Source: Serratia liquefaciens ATCC 27592 (GTDB lineage: Bacteria > Pseudomonadota > Gammaproteobacteria > Enterobacterales > Enterobacteriaceae). From it: 64,000 nt of DNA. Where the stretch lies: assembly GCF_000422085.1 (NCBI RefSeq), contig NC_021741.1, positions 4,464,001 through 4,528,000 on the forward strand. The letters run 5' to 3'. The position numbers and the translations under genes were made by a program. The notes beneath the pieces were generated by a model. That model did not search any database. It was not told the DNA's origin and saw only the letters and a program-made list of their open reading frames with translations. Shown here piece by piece: positions 8,675 to 17,275 of this stretch. Each line of letters starts with the position of its first letter. Positions within the stretch are counted from its first letter, which is position 1.

Positions 8675-9838
8675 ATGCAAAACTTTATTCTTCATACCCC
8701 AACCAAAATCCTGTTCGGCCAAGACCAAATCGCCGGCCTGGCACAGCAGATCCCTGCCGACGCACGCATTCTGATCACCTACGGTGGCGGCAGCGTGAAG
8801 AAAAATGGCGTGCTGGATCAGGTGTATGCCGCACTGGCGGGCCGCAACGTGCAGGAGTTTTCCGGCATTGAGCCTAACCCAACCTACGAAACGCTGATGA
8901 AAGCGGTCGAAGTGGTGCGCGCAGAGAATATCGATTTCCTGCTGGCGGTCGGCGGCGGCTCCGTGGTTGATGGCACCAAGTTTATTGCCGCAGCGGCACA
9001 CTATCAGGCGGATGCCGATCCATGGCACATCCTGAAAACCGTGGGCAGTGAAATCAAAGGCGCGGTGCCAATGGGCTGCGTACTGACACTGCCGGCCACC
9101 GGCTCTGAGTCCAACAGCGGCGCAGTGATCACCCGCAAAAGCAGCGGCGACAAACAGCATTTCTTCTCGCCACACGTGCAACCGCTGTTCGCGGTGCTGG
9201 ATCCGGTAGTGACCTACTCTCTGCCGCCGCGCCAAATCGCCAATGGCGTAGTCGATGCCTTTGTCCACACCATTGAGCAGTATCTGACCTACCCGGTCGA
9301 CGCCAAAGTGCAAGATCGCTTTGCCGAGGGCCTGCTGCTAACGCTGCTGGAAGATGGCCCGCGCGCGCTGTCCGAGCCGGAAAACTATGCGGTGCGCGCC
9401 AACGTGATGTGGAGCGCAACCATGGCCTTGAACGGCCTGATCGGTGCCGGTGTGCCGCAGGATTGGGCAACCCATATGCTGGGCCACGAATTGACCGCCA
9501 TGCACGGTTTGGATCATGCCCAGACGCTGGCGATTGTTCTGCCTGCGCTGCTGATCGAGAAAAAAGCGCAGAAACGCGAAAAACTGCTGCAGTACGCCGA
9601 CCGCGTTTGGGGCCTGCGCGATGGCAGTGAAGACAGCCGCATCGACGGTGCCATTGCCGCCACTCGTGCCTTCTTCGAACAAATGGGCGTACCGACCCGC
9701 ATGGCGGATTACCAGCTCGACGGCAGCTCTATCCCGGCGTTGCTTGATAAACTGCATCAGCACGGCATGACAGCACTTGGCGAACATCAAGACATCACCC
9801 TCGAAGTCAGCCAACGCATTTATAACGCGGCGCGTTAA
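8675..9838 (+). CDS. yqhD: NADPH-dependent aldehyde reductase / alcohol dehydrogenase YqhD
   Basis: A 387-residue iron-type alcohol dehydrogenase matching YqhD over its length. Cofactor loops are TYGGGSVKKNGV and LLAVGGGSVVDGTKF. Metal ligands fall in VVDAFVHTIEQYLT and in the WATHMLGHELTAMHGLDHAQTLAI region. YqhD reduces short-chain and toxic aldehydes (acrolein, malondialdehyde, glyoxal, methylglyoxal products) with NADPH. It lies between yqhC and dkgA exactly as in E. coli and is expected to be activated by YqhC under aldehyde stress. Confidence 0.96.
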   Translation: MQNFILHTPTKILFGQDQIAGLAQQIPADARILITYGGGSVKKNGVLDQVYAALAGRNVQEFSGIEPNPTYETLMKAVEVVRAENIDFLLAVGGGSVVDGTKFIAAAAHYQADADPWHILKTVGSEIKGAVPMGCVLTLPATGSESNSGAVITRKSSGDKQHFFSPHVQPLFAVLDPVVTYSLPPRQIANGVVDAFVHTIEQYLTYPVDAKVQDRFAEGLLLTLLEDGPRALSEPENYAVRANVMWSATMALNGLIGAGVPQDWATHMLGHELTAMHGLDHAQTLAIVLPALLIEKKAQKREKLLQYADRVWGLRDGSEDSRIDGAIAATRAFFEQMGVPTRMADYQLDGSSIPALLDKLHQHGMTALGEHQDITLEVSQRIYNAAR

Positions 9839-9884
9839 TCGCAAACCGCCTATTTCCTGCTAGGCTTTAGTTTCAACTTCTCTC

Positions 9885-9911
9885 CTGCGCCCGACTCTTC
9901 ATCGGGCGCAG
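9885..9911 (+). terminator. Hairpin after yqhD
   Basis: A perfect ten-pair stem, CTGCGCCCGA and TCGGGCGCAG, with a seven-base loop starts 46 bases after the yqhD stop. The following sequence is TTCAATGCG, a poor T-run, so it may attenuate rather than fully terminate before dkgA. Confidence 0.6.
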
Positions 9912-9966
9912 TTCAATGCGCTATTCGCGCTGCCGATCCTCATCTGATTAACCCATGGGAGAAAAC

Positions 9967-10011
9967 ATGACCTGTAGCCGCCCTATCCCAACAGCGCTGG
10001 AATTTGGTTAG
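9967..10011 (+). CDS. Possible 14-codon small ORF upstream of dkgA
   Basis: ATG at 9967 follows GGGAGAAAAC, a plausible ribosome-binding site, and reads MTCSRPIPTALEFG before TAG. It sits in the 268-base gap between yqhD and dkgA. It could be a leader peptide, a remnant, or chance. There is no homologue I can name. Confidence 0.2.
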   Translation: MTCSRPIPTALEFG

Positions 10012-10106
10012 CAAACTCAGCACTCCCCCAATTTGCCAACTAGAATTTATTAATAGCCGTTTCCGGTGCATGCAGCACTGGGCAATCCGTTGACAAGGAG
10101 ATACGC

Positions 10107-10931
10107 ATGACAACGCAACAACCCATCATCAAACTCCACGATGGTAATCTGATGCCGCAGTTGGGTCTCGGCGTTTGGCAGGCGAGTATTTCAGAAACCA
10201 CCCAGGCGGTGCTTAAAGCACTGGAGGTGGGCTATCGCTCGATCGATACCGCTGCAATCTACAAGAATGAGGAAGGGGTTGGCGCAGCACTGCAATCCAC
10301 CTCAATACCACGCGATGAGCTGTTTATCACCACCAAACTGTGGAACGACGATCAGGGCGACCCGCAAGGCGCGCTGGAAACCAGCCTGGAAAAACTCAAG
10401 TTGGATTACGTCGATCTGTATCTGATCCACTGGCCAAGGCCGCAGCAGGACCAATATGTCGACGCCTGGCGAGGGCTGATCAAACTGCGCGAGCAGGGGT
10501 TGGTCAAAAGCATCGGGGTATGCAATTTCCACACCCCGCACCTGCAGCGCCTGCTGGACGAAACCAATGTCGCACCGGTGATTAACCAAATCGAGCTGCA
10601 CCCGTTGCTGCAACAGCGTCAGCTACGCGCCTGGAACGCAACCCACCATATTGCGACCGAATCCTGGAGCCCACTGGCACAGGGTGGCGAAGGGGTATTC
10701 GACCAACCGGTGATCAAAAACCTGGCGGAAAAATACGAGAAAACCCCGGCGCAAATCGTGGTGCGCTGGCACCTGGACAGCGGGCTGATCGTGATCCCGA
10801 AATCGGTCACGCCAGCGCGCATTCGTGAAAACTTCGAAGTCTTCGACTTCAAACTGGATAAAGACGAACTGGGCGAAATTGCCAAACTGGATATCGGCAA
10901 CCGCCTGGGGCCGGATCCGGACTCACTGTAA
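10107..10931 (+). CDS. dkgA: 2,5-diketo-D-gluconate reductase A / methylglyoxal reductase (aldo-keto reductase)
   Basis: A 274-residue AKR with the family tetrad: aspartate and tyrosine in SIDTAAIYKNEEGVG (about 48-62), lysine in TKLWND, and histidine in LYLIHWPRP. The NADPH-phosphate region is VIPKSVTPARIRENFEVFDF. DkgA reduces 2,5-diketogluconate to 2-keto-L-gulonate and detoxifies methylglyoxal and other 2-oxoaldehydes. The ATG at 10107 has AAGGAG upstream. Its place after yqhD makes it part of the YqhC aldehyde-stress group. Confidence 0.95.
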   Translation: MTTQQPIIKLHDGNLMPQLGLGVWQASISETTQAVLKALEVGYRSIDTAAIYKNEEGVGAALQSTSIPRDELFITTKLWNDDQGDPQGALETSLEKLKLDYVDLYLIHWPRPQQDQYVDAWRGLIKLREQGLVKSIGVCNFHTPHLQRLLDETNVAPVINQIELHPLLQQRQLRAWNATHHIATESWSPLAQGGEGVFDQPVIKNLAEKYEKTPAQIVVRWHLDSGLIVIPKSVTPARIRENFEVFDFKLDKDELGEIAKLDIGNRLGPDPDSL

Positions 10932-10936
10932 TCTCC

Positions 10937-10962
10937 CTGCGCCCGGCTTCGGTCGGGCGCAG
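10937..10962. terminator. Hairpin after dkgA, shared with the convergent amidohydrolase
   Basis: CTGCGCCCG and CGGGCGCAG form a nine-pair stem with an eight-base loop, almost a copy of the hairpin after yqhD. It lies between convergent stops and could end transcription from both sides. No strong T-run follows. Confidence 0.55.
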
Positions 10963-10979
10963 CATCATCCAAAATACGC

Positions 10980-12428
10980 TTATCGGCGATAGGCCTCCGC
11001 CAGATTTACCGACGCTCTCCGCTCCGCCTCCCTAAGCCAGGCAACCGCTTCTGCTCCGGTGATCTCTGCGCGCCCGAGCGCCGCCTGCTGAATACGCGCC
11101 AGCGTCTGAGCGGCACGTTGCCGGATGGCGGCCATATCCTGTCCCACCAGTTCGCCATGCCGCTTGCGAGTCTGGCCGTTGATGATCACCGTATCTACAT
11201 CGGCGGCATGGGACTGCAACACACTGCTCGCCCTTGGGAAAGAAGAAGGCACCATCGCCCGCTGATGTTTAAGCATAATCACATCGGCCTGTTTTCCCGG
11301 CGTCAGCGAACCAATACTTGTCTCCATTCCCAGCGCAGCCGCGCTGCCGTGGGTCGCCCAACGCAACGCATCCCCCACCGAGAGAGAAAGTTCAGAAACC
11401 ACTTCACCACGGATATGGTGCTGATGGTTATCCAGGCAGCGCTGGGTTTGCAGCCCCAGCCGCATCTGCGAAAACAGATCCCCAGACCCCACGCAGACAA
11501 TGTCAGTGCTGATCGCCGGGGCTATCCCGTGATCCAGACAGGCTCTGATGGGAGGAAAGCCCATGCCCATTTGCATTTCAGTTTCGGGGGCAATGCTGAC
11601 TTTAGCGCCGGTTTTAGCCAACAGCCGCCATTCGGGATCGGTCAGACCGGAACAGTGAATATGCAGGTGACCGGGCTGCAGCAATTGATGATCGTCCAGC
11701 TCCTGTAACCCTTTCAATAACCGGCTATTCGGCAGTGCGCCGGTATGAGAAGCAATCAGGATATCCTGCTGCTGCGCCATGCGGATCTCCGCCGCTGTCT
11801 GCGTAAAGGGCACGGTGCCGAAATCGCTGAGCAAGGTTCCCATACGCAACAAACCCTGATCGTCGCTAAAATAACGCTCGCGCAATTCAGCGGCAAAATT
11901 GACGCGTTCTTGATGGCTGGAAAAACCGGCGGGCTGAAAATCATAAACCTGAAATCCATAGGAATACACGCCACGGATACCGGATTGTTGCAGTGATTCG
12001 ATCGCCGCGACGGCATGATCCGGGCTATTCACACAGTCACAGCAGTCGAGGATGGTTGTGACCCCGCTGTCTATGGCCTCGAGCGCCCCCACCAGGGTGG
12101 CAGCGGACAAATCCTCGGCGGTCACCAAGGCCCCCAGCCCATAAAACGTATTTGCCAGAAATTCCGGCAACGACATATCGCCGGAGATCCCCCGAAACAA
12201 CGACATCCAGGTGTGGCGATGACTGTCGATCATACCCGGCAACACGATCGCACCACGCGCATCGATCACTTCGGCATCCAGATGACTAAACGCCTTTGCG
12301 TTTTCCGCCAGCGCTGCGATCCGGCCATTTTCAATCAGCAGCGCCCCCTGGGGCAGTTCCCCATACTCTGCATCCATGGTGATAATATGACCGCCAGTGA
12401 TGACCTTACGATCGACCTGCATGCTCAT
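10980..12428 (-). CDS. Amidohydrolase-superfamily enzyme (TrzA/AtzB/cytosine-deaminase-like)
   Basis: A 482-residue TIM-barrel metal hydrolase. Metal-site residues are visible: H70 and H72 in DSHRHTW, H228 in IASHTGA, H258 in LHIHCSG and D309 in ISTDIVC. The C-terminal composite domain closes with LTPGKQADVIML. The glutamate usually three residues after the third histidine (HxxE in deaminases) is absent; an alanine stands there. It may therefore be a hydrolase or lyase-type relative rather than a deaminase. ATG at 12428 with AGGAGG. It lies 151 bases downstream of the Hod-like gene on the same strand and may share its transcript. Substrate unknown. Confidence 0.8.
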   Translation of the reverse strand: MSMQVDRKVITGGHIITMDAEYGELPQGALLIENGRIAALAENAKAFSHLDAEVIDARGAIVLPGMIDSHRHTWMSLFRGISGDMSLPEFLANTFYGLGALVTAEDLSAATLVGALEAIDSGVTTILDCCDCVNSPDHAVAAIESLQQSGIRGVYSYGFQVYDFQPAGFSSHQERVNFAAELRERYFSDDQGLLRMGTLLSDFGTVPFTQTAAEIRMAQQQDILIASHTGALPNSRLLKGLQELDDHQLLQPGHLHIHCSGLTDPEWRLLAKTGAKVSIAPETEMQMGMGFPPIRACLDHGIAPAISTDIVCVGSGDLFSQMRLGLQTQRCLDNHQHHIRGEVVSELSLSVGDALRWATHGSAAALGMETSIGSLTPGKQADVIMLKHQRAMVPSSFPRASSVLQSHAADVDTVIINGQTRKRHGELVGQDMAAIRQRAAQTLARIQQAALGRAEITGAEAVAWLREAERRASVNLAEAYRR

Positions 12429-12579
12429 GTTTTACCTCCTGATTACCCACTGGAAAACAGGCGTGCACAATGTCGGTGGTTTAATCACGGCAGACAGGCC
12501 GAACGACATAAATACGGCTACGCACATTCTTATGAATCTGCTCATCATTAGGAGCGCTGTTGCTACGGCGGGATGTTGC

Positions 12580-13377
12580 CTAGCCAATAAATGACCGGAT
12601 TTCCATCACCACTTTGTCCGGCGATTCCAGGGTGGGGAAATGACTCGCCCCCGCAATTTTTACCGGATTGAACCCGCGGTGGCGTTGGGCGAACTCGCGC
12701 TGCAACTGGTCATACTCTGCGCTATGCGGTTGTGAATAGAGGTGCATTACCGGACGCTCAGGGGTGAGCTGTTCCAGGCGTTGCAGGGGAGAGCCAAATT
12801 GCCCATAGGCCAACTCGATTTCCCGACAAGAACGGATCCACATCTCCTGATCGAATCCGGACATTTCCTGTTGGACATGGTTGATCACATCCTGGTTATC
12901 CGTATGGGCTACCCATTCCGCAAACAGGGCATCTCGCGCCTGTTGCCAGCTTTCCGGCCGCTGGCTCTGCTGTAAATTCTGCAGAAGATCGGTAAAAGCG
13001 CCGGTCATCAGCCAGTCCACCACGATGGCTTTCGGTACCCGCAACGGGCCCAGTTGCTGGCTTAAAGCGATGTTGGCCCAGCCGCCATGGGATGTAGAGA
13101 GCGGAATCAAGCGCTCAACATCCAGCCGGTCAAGAAACAGAACCAGATCGGCCGTGAGATCATCCATACCAAAATCGCCGTCATAACTGCGTGCGGCATT
13201 GTGCCCGCGCCAATCAATATTAAGTACGCGATAGTGTTGCGCCAGCAGCGGTATTAGGTGTTTAAAAAGCCGGTGATCCTGGCACCAACCGGAAAGCAAC
13301 AGCAGGGTGGTGTCCCCGCTGCCGCTGTCCTGGTAGTCGAATGTATTGCTGCCCAGCGTTATCGTTTTCATGCTCAT
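12580..13377 (-). CDS. Hod-like cofactor-independent 2,4-dioxygenase (alpha/beta-hydrolase fold)
   Basis: 265 residues from the ATG at 13377 (GAGGGA upstream). Recalled side by side, it aligns along its length with HOD of Arthrobacter, the cofactor-free dioxygenase that opens 3-hydroxy-4-oxoquinaldine to N-acetylanthranilate and CO. Shared blocks: LLSGWCQDHRLFKHLI, DWRGHN, TSHGGWANIAL, VVDWLM, ELAYGQFGSPLQ, LYSQPHSAEY, GASHFPTLESPD. HOD catalytic S101, D126 and H251 correspond to S96, D121 and H246, all at a constant offset of five, and W36 to W31. HOD H38 and H100 appear as Q33 and T95. The relative AqdC destroys the Pseudomonas quinolone signal. An ordinary esterase remains possible but less likely. 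Confidence 0.72.
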   Translation of the reverse strand: MSMKTITLGSNTFDYQDSGSGDTTLLLLSGWCQDHRLFKHLIPLLAQHYRVLNIDWRGHNAARSYDGDFGMDDLTADLVLFLDRLDVERLIPLSTSHGGWANIALSQQLGPLRVPKAIVVDWLMTGAFTDLLQNLQQSQRPESWQQARDALFAEWVAHTDNQDVINHVQQEMSGFDQEMWIRSCREIELAYGQFGSPLQRLEQLTPERPVMHLYSQPHSAEYDQLQREFAQRHRGFNPVKIAGASHFPTLESPDKVVMEIRSFIG

Positions 13378-13390
13378 GCTTGTTCCCTCA

Positions 13391-13528
13391 TCATGCAGAA
13401 AGTGGGATGCAGGGGTGAATGGCGATCCGGCCAGATTTGTCCGTTTCCCACAAGAACTGTAGTAGATGCTTATGCTCTGCCAGCCGGCGAGGAAAATTGT
13501 GTGGCGGTTCAAGCGGGAAATCGCTCAT
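13391..13528 (-). CDS. Small 45-residue ORF directly upstream of the Hod-like gene
   Basis: ATG at 13528 is preceded by AGGAGG at six bases, one of the best ribosome-binding sites in the window. The frame runs 45 codons (MSDFPLEPPHNFPRRL... ending CIPLSA) to tandem TGA codons at 13391 and just beyond. The Hod-like start codon lies 13 bases downstream, so the two are likely co-translated. No transmembrane segment or signal peptide is visible; it is rich in proline, histidine and charged residues. It could be a real small protein, a translational-coupling leader, or the head of a decayed gene. I do not recognise it. Confidence 0.5.
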   Translation of the reverse strand: MSDFPLEPPHNFPRRLAEHKHLLQFLWETDKSGRIAIHPCIPLSA

Positions 13529-13689
13529 CTCCCCCCTCCTGTTTGTGATGGTACGGTAAGGCAATAATTTGACTATATGGCGTTTTTATAGGCGGTGAGT
13601 AATGAATAGTCACAACACGGGTATGCCGAAATGGAATAGCAAGAGGGGATTTTGAGAAGGGTATGATTGACAGACAGATCAGAAAAAGA

Positions 13690-13751
13690 GGGTAAGTACC
13701 CGCCCAGGCTAAAGTGTTGCCTATCAGCCTGGGACATACTGAGACTTACCC
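13690..13751. repeat. Nested inverted repeat downstream of the beta-glucosidase gene
   Basis: Outer arms GGGTAAGT (13690-13697) and ACTTACCC (13744-13751) enclose inner arms CCCAGGCT (13703-13710) and AGCCTGGG (13726-13733). The structure starts 10 bases past the glucosidase stop and could form an extended hairpin in its transcript, without a T-run. The rest of the 13529-13761 gap shows only very short ORFs and no recognised gene. Confidence 0.5.
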
Positions 13752-13761
13752 CTTTAGCGAG

Positions 13762-15487
<1,726 letters not shown>

Positions 15488-15491
<4 letters not shown>

Positions 15492-16807
15492 TCGGTGACT
15501 CCTTGTGTCTGTTCAATCTGCTCCGCTTCGCTCACTTCCTGATCCAGCAGCTGTTGCTCATAGACTTTGAAGAATGGGTAGTAGATCAACGCCGAAACCG
15601 CCGCCAGCAGCAGCACCAACAGCGCGGCGCGGAAATCCCAACCGGTAGCCCAGGCGGCACCAATCGGCGCCGGAGCGGTCCAGGGCACCACCGAGATCAC
15701 CCGCCCGATCAGATCCAGCTTCACCGCCGCGTAGGCGATGATCGAATTGACGATCGGCGCGGTAATAAACGGAATAAAGAAGGTAGGGTTCATCACGATC
15801 GGCGTGCCGAAGATCACCGGTTCGTTGATGTTGAAACAACTCGGCACCAGGCTCAGCTTGCCGATCGAACGCAGGTGCGCCGAACGGCTGCGCAGATAAA
15901 GCAGCACCAGCCCAAAGGTGGCGCCGGATCCGCCGATGACGATAAAGAAGGTCCAGAAGGCCTCCATAAAGATGTGCGGCATCGGTTGGTTGGCGGCCAG
16001 CGCGTCTTGGTTAATCCCCAGGTTGGTGAGCCAGAAGGCCTGCAGCATACCGGAAACGATCACCGCTCCGTGGATACCCGCAAACCACAGCAAATGGCCG
16101 ATCAGCACCGCCAGCAAGATCGCCGGCAGCGAATCCGCAGCAGAGATCAAGGGTTGGAACAGCGCCATGATCGCCTGCGGTAATAGCAGGTTGAACTGGT
16201 GCTGTACCAGCAGGCTCAGCGGATACAGGGTGATCACCACCGCCAGGATCGGGATCAGCAGATCAAACGACTGCTTGATCTTGGCCGGCACCTGTTCCGG
16301 CAGCGAGATGCCGATATTGTGCGCCTTAAGGAAGCGGATCAGTTCGGTGGTGTATATCGCCACCAAAATGGCGGTGAAGATCCCCACGCCGCCCAGTGCG
16401 GCGGTCGGCAGCATTTTTTCGCTTTGCGGTGCGGCCACCAGCAAGAAAGACATCAATGCCAGCATCGCCGCCATAAAGGGATCGAGCTTATAACTCTGCG
16501 CCAGGTTGTAGGCAATGGCGGCGGTGATATAGATGGACATAATGCCCATCGTCATATTAAACGGGGTGAGAATAGCGACCTGATGTTTTTCCGCCGCCCC
16601 CAGCCACCATTGGGCAATGCCCCAACTGCTGTCGGCGGAAAAGGGCGGATAGGCAAACACCAGCAAGAATGAACCGACGATCATAAAGGGCATCGCGGAA
16701 ATAAAACCGTCGCGGATCGCCATAATATGTCGCTGAGTCGATAATCTCCCGGCAATCGGGCTGATGCGGTTTTCGATAAAATTGAATGCGGCCTGGCTGA
16801 TACTCAT
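15488..16807 (-). CDS. PTS lactose/cellobiose-family EIIC permease
   Basis: A 439-residue polytopic membrane protein of the CelB/ChbC type. It contains the family segment SCFNINEPVIFGTPIVMNPTFFIPFI, in which the NEP motif sits in the substrate-binding region, and multiple hydrophobic helices. It imports an aryl-beta-glucoside, cellobiose-like or related sugar while IIB phosphorylates it. ATG at 16807 has GAGGG upstream. The exact sugar cannot be read from sequence; the GH1 partner rather than a chitobiase-type enzyme argues for beta-glucosides. Confidence 0.92.
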
Positions 16808-16892
16808 GGTTCAACCCTCGGGAGGTGCTGAGTCAATGGTCACAGGATGGGAAAACCGGCGGAAACGGCCTGATGCCGGCGGCCCGGTGGGA

Positions 16893-17204
16893 TCAGTGTT
16901 GTGCGATCATCTGTAAGGCTTCGGCGAGAATTTTATCGCCGCGCATCATGCCGTAATCCATGCTGTTTATTACCGCTATCGGCTTATTTTCCCTGTCGGC
17001 AATCTTTTTAAAATCGGCGAACTTATATTTCACCTGCGGCCCAAGCAGGCAACATTGGTAATTCGCCAACGTGGATTCAAATTCCTCCAGGCCGACGGCG
17101 ATAATATCAACCTCAATCCCCTGCTGTTCGGCAGACTTTTTCATTTTATTCACCACCATGCTGGTCGACATTCCTGCGGCGCAGCATAAGAATATTTTTT
17201 TCAT
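16893..17204 (-). CDS. PTS lactose/cellobiose-family EIIB
   Basis: 103 residues from the ATG at 17204, chosen because AGGAG precedes it at proper spacing; an upstream in-frame ATG at 17222 overlaps that ribosome-binding site. The N-terminal KKIFLCCAAGMSTSMVVNKM contains the phospho-cysteine loop of Lac-family IIB. It is the first gene of the operon and lies downstream of a paired CCGG-centred dyad that looks like a LacI-type operator. Confidence 0.92.
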   Translation of the reverse strand: MKKIFLCCAAGMSTSMVVNKMKKSAEQQGIEVDIIAVGLEEFESTLANYQCCLLGPQVKYKFADFKKIADRENKPIAVINSMDYGMMRGDKILAEALQMIAQH

Positions 17205-17275
17205 CCGTTCTCCTGGAGGCATAGGTACAAATGATTCAGTTGAAGAATGAGTATGGTTTCAAAAACGAGAAAACC

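Follow-up and report, generated by a model that had tools for sequence, protein, structure and literature searches.

The window, by which we mean the whole 64,000-nucleotide stretch of Serratia liquefaciens ATCC 27592 DNA that was analysed, contains a gene for a protein resembling the cofactor-free dioxygenases HOD and Qdo, followed by an amidohydrolase gene on the same strand. The features discussed here are as follows.

10980..12428, minus strand: amidohydrolase of the TRZ/ATZ type, 482 aa, scoring above the PRK08204 cut-off
12429..12579, minus strand: intergenic gap of 151 bp between the HOD-family and amidohydrolase genes, covered by a consensus scan
12580..13377, minus strand: HOD/Qdo-type cofactor-free dioxygenase, 265 aa, with W31, Q33, T95, S96, H97, D121 and H246
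13384..13389, minus strand: GAGGGA, a probable ribosome-binding site 6 nt 5' of the ATG at 13377, read from the sequence

The HOD-family reading frame is intact from the ATG at 13377; a longer TTG-started frame reaches 13512, and its portion upstream of 13377 is taken as non-coding. The consensus scan gave no promoter-like or terminator-like match in the 151 bp before the downstream amidohydrolase gene, its matches being no more numerous than in shuffled sequence, and an Rfam search of window positions 9800-16000 gave no match at the gathering threshold. The GC contents of the two genes (0.55 and 0.58) are similar to those of their neighbours, and the gene company of the dioxygenase consists of dkgA, the amidohydrolase and a GH1 enzyme. 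The GH1 enzyme, in the region 13762-17222 (minus strand), passes the beta-glucosidase model TIGR03356 and may be a 6-phospho-beta-glucosidase, because the genes beside it look by eye like PTS components.

The amidohydrolase retains an HxH motif (70, 72), H228, H258 and D309, consistent with the AtzA pattern, the motif roles being those that we presume from AtzA. It lacks the glutamate found in AtzA three residues past the third histidine (HMAE; HxxE), which makes the activity of a standard deaminase or chlorohydrolase unlikely. A piperine amidohydrolase is described as sitting with PuhB and MolA in subtype VIII (PMC12753220).

Family membership, active site and phylogeny

When the 12580-13377 product was compared with all PDB chains by phmmer, the best match was Qdo (3ibt; E 3.8e-74, query residues 5-264), followed by HOD (2wj3; E 7.9e-64) and AqdC (6ra2; E 2.5e-59), after which the matches fall to ordinary hydrolases at E 2e-7 and weaker. 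The whole-length alignment with HOD reported in the first-pass annotation was thus reproduced. In the family alignment the protein is 45.6% identical to Qdo (P. putida 33/1), 37.4% to HOD and 37.3% to AqdC of M. abscessus. Pfam recognizes general alpha/beta-hydrolase families alone (PF12697, PF00561), and no NCBIfam model matched the protein at its cut-off.

The active-site positions tabulated are a selection of those regarded as important in HOD. HOD residues W36, S101, D126 and H251 correspond to W31, S96, D121 and H246 of the window protein, with an offset that is always five, exactly as had been proposed from the sequence for the catalytic Ser/Asp/His and W31, and these four residues are invariant in 22 aligned sequences including that of the window. 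PMC3961685 and PMC10548524 describe how the His/Asp base of HOD works and what its S101 contributes. At HOD positions 38, 100 and 101 the window-type proteins carry Q/T/S, HOD of plasmid pAL1 H/H/S and AqdC-type proteins H/H/A. Q33 and T95 had been singled out earlier as substitutions that could shift the substrate range. Both residues are real, but they are not oddities: they are the Qdo state, the window protein and Qdo sharing W/Q/T/S/H/D/H throughout, and they recur in every Rhizobiales, actinobacterial, Bacillota, Comamonadaceae and Serratia window-type row of the table. Only insofar as they represent this Qdo state is an effect on substrate range plausible.

A maximum-likelihood tree of 64 rows was built from an 85-row alignment, from which six rows were removed (second copies L106, L113 and L114, the gene of Serratia genome G301 cut at a stop as L069 and L115, and the partial L086) and a further 22 were thinned as near relatives, and to which seven ordinary alpha/beta hydrolases were added (ten candidates, three without a hit). 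The HOD family separates from the seven hydrolases at 100/99, with a long-branch warning at that join. The window protein clusters with that of a Comamonadaceae metagenome-assembled genome (locus L024) at 98/94, and pAL1 HOD and the AqdC proteins form a separate group at 100/97. Qdo, the closest solved structure by identity, is unlike the window protein in being a long branch, whose placement the tree does not settle. Two actinobacterial proteins in the Q/T/S state (L061 and L062) adjoin the HOD/AqdC group at 93/93, a join that is not starred, and the active-site state is therefore not a clean clade marker. Full-length similarity, a His-Asp pair with the elbow serine and the W36 equivalent, and a clade apart from ordinary hydrolases together support the assignment of the window protein, as first proposed, to the HOD family of cofactor-free 3-hydroxy-4-quinolone 2,4-dioxygenases.

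A second, HOD-like paralogue, 36-43% identical (L002/L106; G000:C1:2815332-2816102, G000 being the genome of the window), is commoner, occurring in 22 of 30 Serratia genomes, in one of them as a partial gene, and on a Pantoea plasmid (L091); a Rahnella plasmid match lies outside the alignment. The elbow serine is replaced by alanine (VAHAS) in every aligned copy, and the copies form one clade (100/100). The paralogue is likely an oxygenase rather than a hydrolase. Quinolone genes are absent around nine copies, mostly viewed in short stretches. Beside one copy, at L106:7425-8777, lies what resembles a gene for a DNA ADP-ribosyltransferase of the DarT-like kind, and another gene follows it.

The gene set in Serratia and at related loci

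A piecewise search of the Serratia genome located the candidate gene set in three places: HOD and the amidohydrolase in the window, a transporter-monooxygenase-amidase cluster at 3.87 Mb, and a 3-hydroxyanthranilate meta-pathway cluster at 1.12 Mb. The cluster at 3.87 Mb encodes an MFS transporter of the aromatic-acid kind, which scores 367 bits against a subfamily cut-off of 419, a flavin monooxygenase (L104:10110-11246), 66-75% identical to the neighbours of Rhizobiales HOD genes, and an adjoining hydrolase (L104:9125-10015). Taken with HOD, these proteins give Serratia homologues of all three pAL1 quinaldine genes of Arthrobacter (FAD monooxygenase, HOD and alpha/beta hydrolase, which lie side by side there), at 48%, 37% and 44% identity. 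The pAL1 assignments beyond HOD are presumptive, and calling the hydrolase an N-acetylanthranilate amidase, a name that appears in a title in the reference list of PMC3534580, is likewise presumptive. Homologues of all three upper-pathway proteins of the quinaldine type (3-monooxygenase, HOD and N-acylanthranilate amidase) are consequently present in the genome. The 3.87-Mb cluster contains no HOD gene, and the window gene is about 0.6 Mb distant, so there is no single operon. Between the monooxygenase and the amidase-like gene lie 94 bases (L104 10016-10109) at the position where Rhizobiales have HOD, with a GC-rich, hairpin-like stretch visible by eye.

The cluster at 1.12 Mb encodes a 3-hydroxyanthranilate 3,4-dioxygenase (3-HAO) scoring above both NCBIfam cut-offs (251 bits against a cut-off of 220), a 4-hydroxy-2-oxovalerate aldolase and an acetaldehyde dehydrogenase, both above cut-off, and a semialdehyde dehydrogenase above that of TIGR03216, in addition to an oxalocrotonate decarboxylase-like and a hydratase-like protein, the two FAA enzymes of the cluster, which are below their equivalog cut-offs, and ACMSD-like and Rid-like proteins. 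The last two had no NCBIfam match listed at 1e-25, and their names rest on matches to an Actinomadura locus (L053, below) and on reading by eye. Across the genome, kynureninase stays below its cut-off (best 26.6 of 246.4 bits), as does anthranilate 1,2-dioxygenase (100.9 of 671.9 bits). A tryptophan 2,3-dioxygenase is present in another cluster (L119:9200-15688; G000:C1 about 3.204-3.211 Mb), whose other genes, judged by eye, resemble those for MaoC, an aldolase and an acetaldehyde dehydrogenase and for cyclodeaminase-like, CitE-like and KAPA-synthase-like proteins; this cluster is possibly biosynthetic.

Within Serratia, three of 30 genomes (G000, G300 and G301) have the window-type HOD (at least 96% identical), and the amidohydrolase, the monooxygenase and 3-HAO are found in these three and no others. 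In all three the HOD-amidohydrolase pair has the surroundings seen in the window, and the location of the monooxygenase is shared. Because these genomes are sisters in the paralogue tree, the shared occurrence represents one gain or one retention and does not count as independent evidence. The G301 copy of HOD (G301:C1:2178085-2178876, L069) contains one internal TAG; the matches to its monooxygenase, amidohydrolase and 3-HAO have no internal stop. On the S. liquefaciens contig L023 the gene is present at 96% identity and has the same neighbours, but this contig equals that of the G300 locus in length (150,764) and encodes an identical HOD protein, and the two, probably one assembly, were not counted twice. 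Among 295 genomes drawn from the host's family, the close form was found only in G000; 168 had some match at 0.001, mostly weak hydrolase matches once the paralogue is set aside.

The contig scan for related HOD genes found 45 loci, of which 44 were clear relatives and one (L067; 23% over 105 residues) was dropped; the S. liquefaciens locus L023 was also excluded, leaving 43 loci (L024-L066; 25 Rhizobiales, 12 actinobacteria, 5 Bacillota and 1 Comamonadaceae), a few of them on short contigs. Neighbour homologues were sought within the fetched flanks, using the Serratia proteins as queries at E 1e-20. The flavin monooxygenase, of the quinaldine-pathway 3-monooxygenase type, is represented in 32 loci (all 25 Rhizobiales, 2/12 actinobacteria and all 5 Bacillota), the N-acylanthranilate-amidase-like hydrolase in 33 (23 Rhizobiales, 9 actinobacteria and the Comamonadaceae locus) and 3-HAO in 20 (18/25 Rhizobiales and the actinobacterial L053 and L062, 2/12). 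The fetched flanks of the other 23 loci lack 3-HAO (7/25 Rhizobiales, 10/12 actinobacteria, 5/5 Bacillota and the short Comamonadaceae contig). Where one such enzyme was scored against its models, at L030, it exceeded both cut-offs. A LysR regulator like that of the Serratia 3-hydroxyanthranilate cluster (34-42% identity) accompanies HOD in 32/43 loci, which is weak evidence because the family is large.

In Rhizobiales the order monooxygenase-HOD-amidase is contiguous in 21 of the 25 loci and equals the order around HOD on pAL1. In ten of the twelve actinobacterial loci this monooxygenase type is absent from the fetched flanks, and five (L052, L057, L058, L061 and L063) have an HsaA-like flavin monooxygenase instead, which is above cut-off in L061, the one of the five that was scanned. 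A homologue of the window amidohydrolase (55-66% identity) lies near HOD in 11 of the 12 actinobacterial loci, within flanks of up to 8 kb, and was not found in the fetched flanks of the 25 Rhizobiales or 5 Bacillota loci. The Actinomadura locus has, beside HOD, an amidase, an ALDH, two FAA-family enzymes, a Rid protein and 3-HAO, and its Amidohydro_2 protein is 52% identical to the Serratia ACMSD-like protein. As controls, four stretches of the anthranilate/PQS kind (pAL1, BG43, Prescottella and Nocardia; 12.7-18.8 kb) were examined: all contain the monooxygenase, none contains 3-HAO, and only pAL1 has the amidase-type hydrolase.

A candidate 8-hydroxy-4-quinolone pathway and its alternatives

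On balance we favour, with some reservation, the reading that the window enzyme is a Qdo-type 3-hydroxy-4-quinolone 2,4-dioxygenase acting in the catabolism of 8-hydroxy-4-quinolones, with xanthurenic acid or 4,8-dihydroxyquinoline as its likeliest natural substrates. Given that the genome encodes counterparts of a quinolone 3-monooxygenase, of HOD and of an N-acylanthranilate amidase, an 8-hydroxy-4-quinolone is the simplest source of 3-hydroxyanthranilate. Xanthurenate is a common natural 8-hydroxy-4-quinolone and a tryptophan waste product of animals; our confidence in xanthurenate itself is lower than in the compound class. Family, catalytic residues, gene set, neighbourhoods and co-occurrence are read from sequence, from which we infer substrate, order of steps and activity.

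In the proposed scheme, the aromatic-acid transporter would import the quinolone and the flavin monooxygenase would hydroxylate it at C3. The His246-Asp121 pair of the window enzyme would then remove the 3-OH proton, and O2, held at the oxyanion hole by Ser96, would attack C2, leading to ring opening and loss of CO. The amidase-like hydrolase would strip the N-acyl group to give 3-hydroxyanthranilate, which 3-HAO would open, the meta pathway then yielding pyruvate and acetyl-CoA. The 2-carboxyl group of xanthurenate would either yield an N-oxalyl product or have to be lost beforehand, 4,8-dihydroxyquinoline being decarboxylated xanthurenic acid. The amidohydrolase may act before the monooxygenase or as a second de-acylase. 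The Serratia cluster at 1.12 Mb corresponds to the 3-hydroxyanthranilate meta pathway (nbaC and following), which on this reading would be fed by quinolone cleavage and not by kynureninase. Benzoxazinoids were considered as an alternative substrate, PMC3335876 describing alpha/beta-hydrolase genes induced by DIMBOA and no more than that, as was the 8-hydroxyquinoline-2-carboxylate of caterpillar guts as a possible precursor. Against the 8-hydroxy-4-quinolone reading stand the lack of linkage between HOD and the monooxygenase-amidase pair in Serratia, the single event behind the Serratia co-occurrence, the presence of 3-HAO in fewer than half of the 43 loci, the ten actinobacterial loci without this monooxygenase type, the TAG in G301 and, for xanthurenate, its 2-carboxyl group.

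The first-pass annotation had suggested quorum quenching, namely an AqdC-like enzyme that destroys the Pseudomonas quinolone signal (PQS), and this we now regard as very improbable. AqdC (M. abscessus and R. erythropolis BG43; background in PMC5332414) is of the same family and has a partner FAD monooxygenase, AqdB2 of BG43 being 42% identical to the Serratia flavin monooxygenase, and pAL1 HOD is described as cleaving PQS, though with much lower activity than on its own substrate and as a catabolic enzyme (PMC3534580). However, AqdC has H/H/A in place of Q/T/S and lies on a separate branch, the BG43, Prescottella and Nocardia loci have neither amidase-type hydrolase nor 3-HAO, and the aqdA-aqdB-aqdC arrangement is absent at the window gene. 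With gene company that is catabolic and ends in 3-hydroxyanthranilate cleavage, quorum quenching as a primary role is rejected.

A plain Qdo pathway, in which an unsubstituted or 2-methyl 3-hydroxy-4-quinolone gives N-formyl- or N-acetylanthranilate, the anthranilate enters tryptophan synthesis or another route, and the 3-HAO cluster is unrelated, is unlikely, although the nearest solved relative and the active-site state are both those of Qdo and more than half of the related loci lack 3-HAO. No anthranilate 1,2-dioxygenase exceeds its cut-off in the genome, the monooxygenase and 3-HAO are confined to the same three Serratia genomes, and 3-HAO does accompany HOD in the remaining related loci. 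The pAL1 quinaldine system differs from the scheme proposed for Serratia: it leads to anthranilate with no 3-HAO near, and there HOD is linked to its partners, unlike in Serratia. In Arthrobacter Rue61a the HOD gene block is described as encoding the upper-pathway enzymes of quinaldine degradation, including 1H-4-oxoquinaldine 3-monooxygenase, and the strain as not growing on 3-hydroxyanthranilate (PMC3534580).

HOD and the amidohydrolase might instead make up a pathway of their own, acting on a different N-heterocycle and having no connection with the monooxygenase-amidase pair. The pairing is seen in Serratia, unlinked to other pathway genes, and in nearly all actinobacterial loci, ten of the twelve being without the monooxygenase. 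We hold this improbable in view of the amidase in nine of those loci and 3-HAO in two, together with the phyletic match within Serratia, though the latter is one event. Scarcely probable is an ordinary serine hydrolase resembling HOD, or an inversion of roles like that of the kpi genes, in which a dioxygenase of amidohydrolase fold is followed by an alpha/beta hydrolase acting on its product (PMC7356986). The complete Ser-His-Asp triad and the adjoining amidohydrolase without its HxxE glutamate would suit it, but the HOD family stands apart from the seven hydrolases in the tree, the long-branch warning notwithstanding, KpiC is described as nearest, among enzymes of known function, to enamidase (28%), and no kinship of KpiB with HOD is mentioned in the passages of PMC7356986 consulted. 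Judged against the Kpi proteins by that published description alone, inverted roles are not supported.

Returning to 8-hydroxy-4-quinolone catabolism, a full bacterial route for xanthurenic acid in Serratia, Rhizobiales and some actinobacteria, comprising 3-hydroxylation, CO-releasing cleavage, de-acylation to 3-hydroxyanthranilate and meta cleavage, can be put forward only tentatively. Among the literature matches listed, seen as titles and abstract openings and including few subscription journals, no such route is described. According to PMC3372515 the mosquito midgut produces xanthurenate following a blood meal, and PMC3491036 describes a role for it when gametes mature in mosquitoes. If the route exists, insect-associated Serratia would use it to clear an end product of tryptophan that also cues gamete maturation of the malaria parasite in mosquitoes.

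Overall, the enzyme moves from a guessed quorum quencher to a probable step in a pathway that can be defined and whose class of substrates can be tested. If this reading is right, it would give xanthurenate a new bacterial fate, and it would point to the amidohydrolase as a conserved partner.
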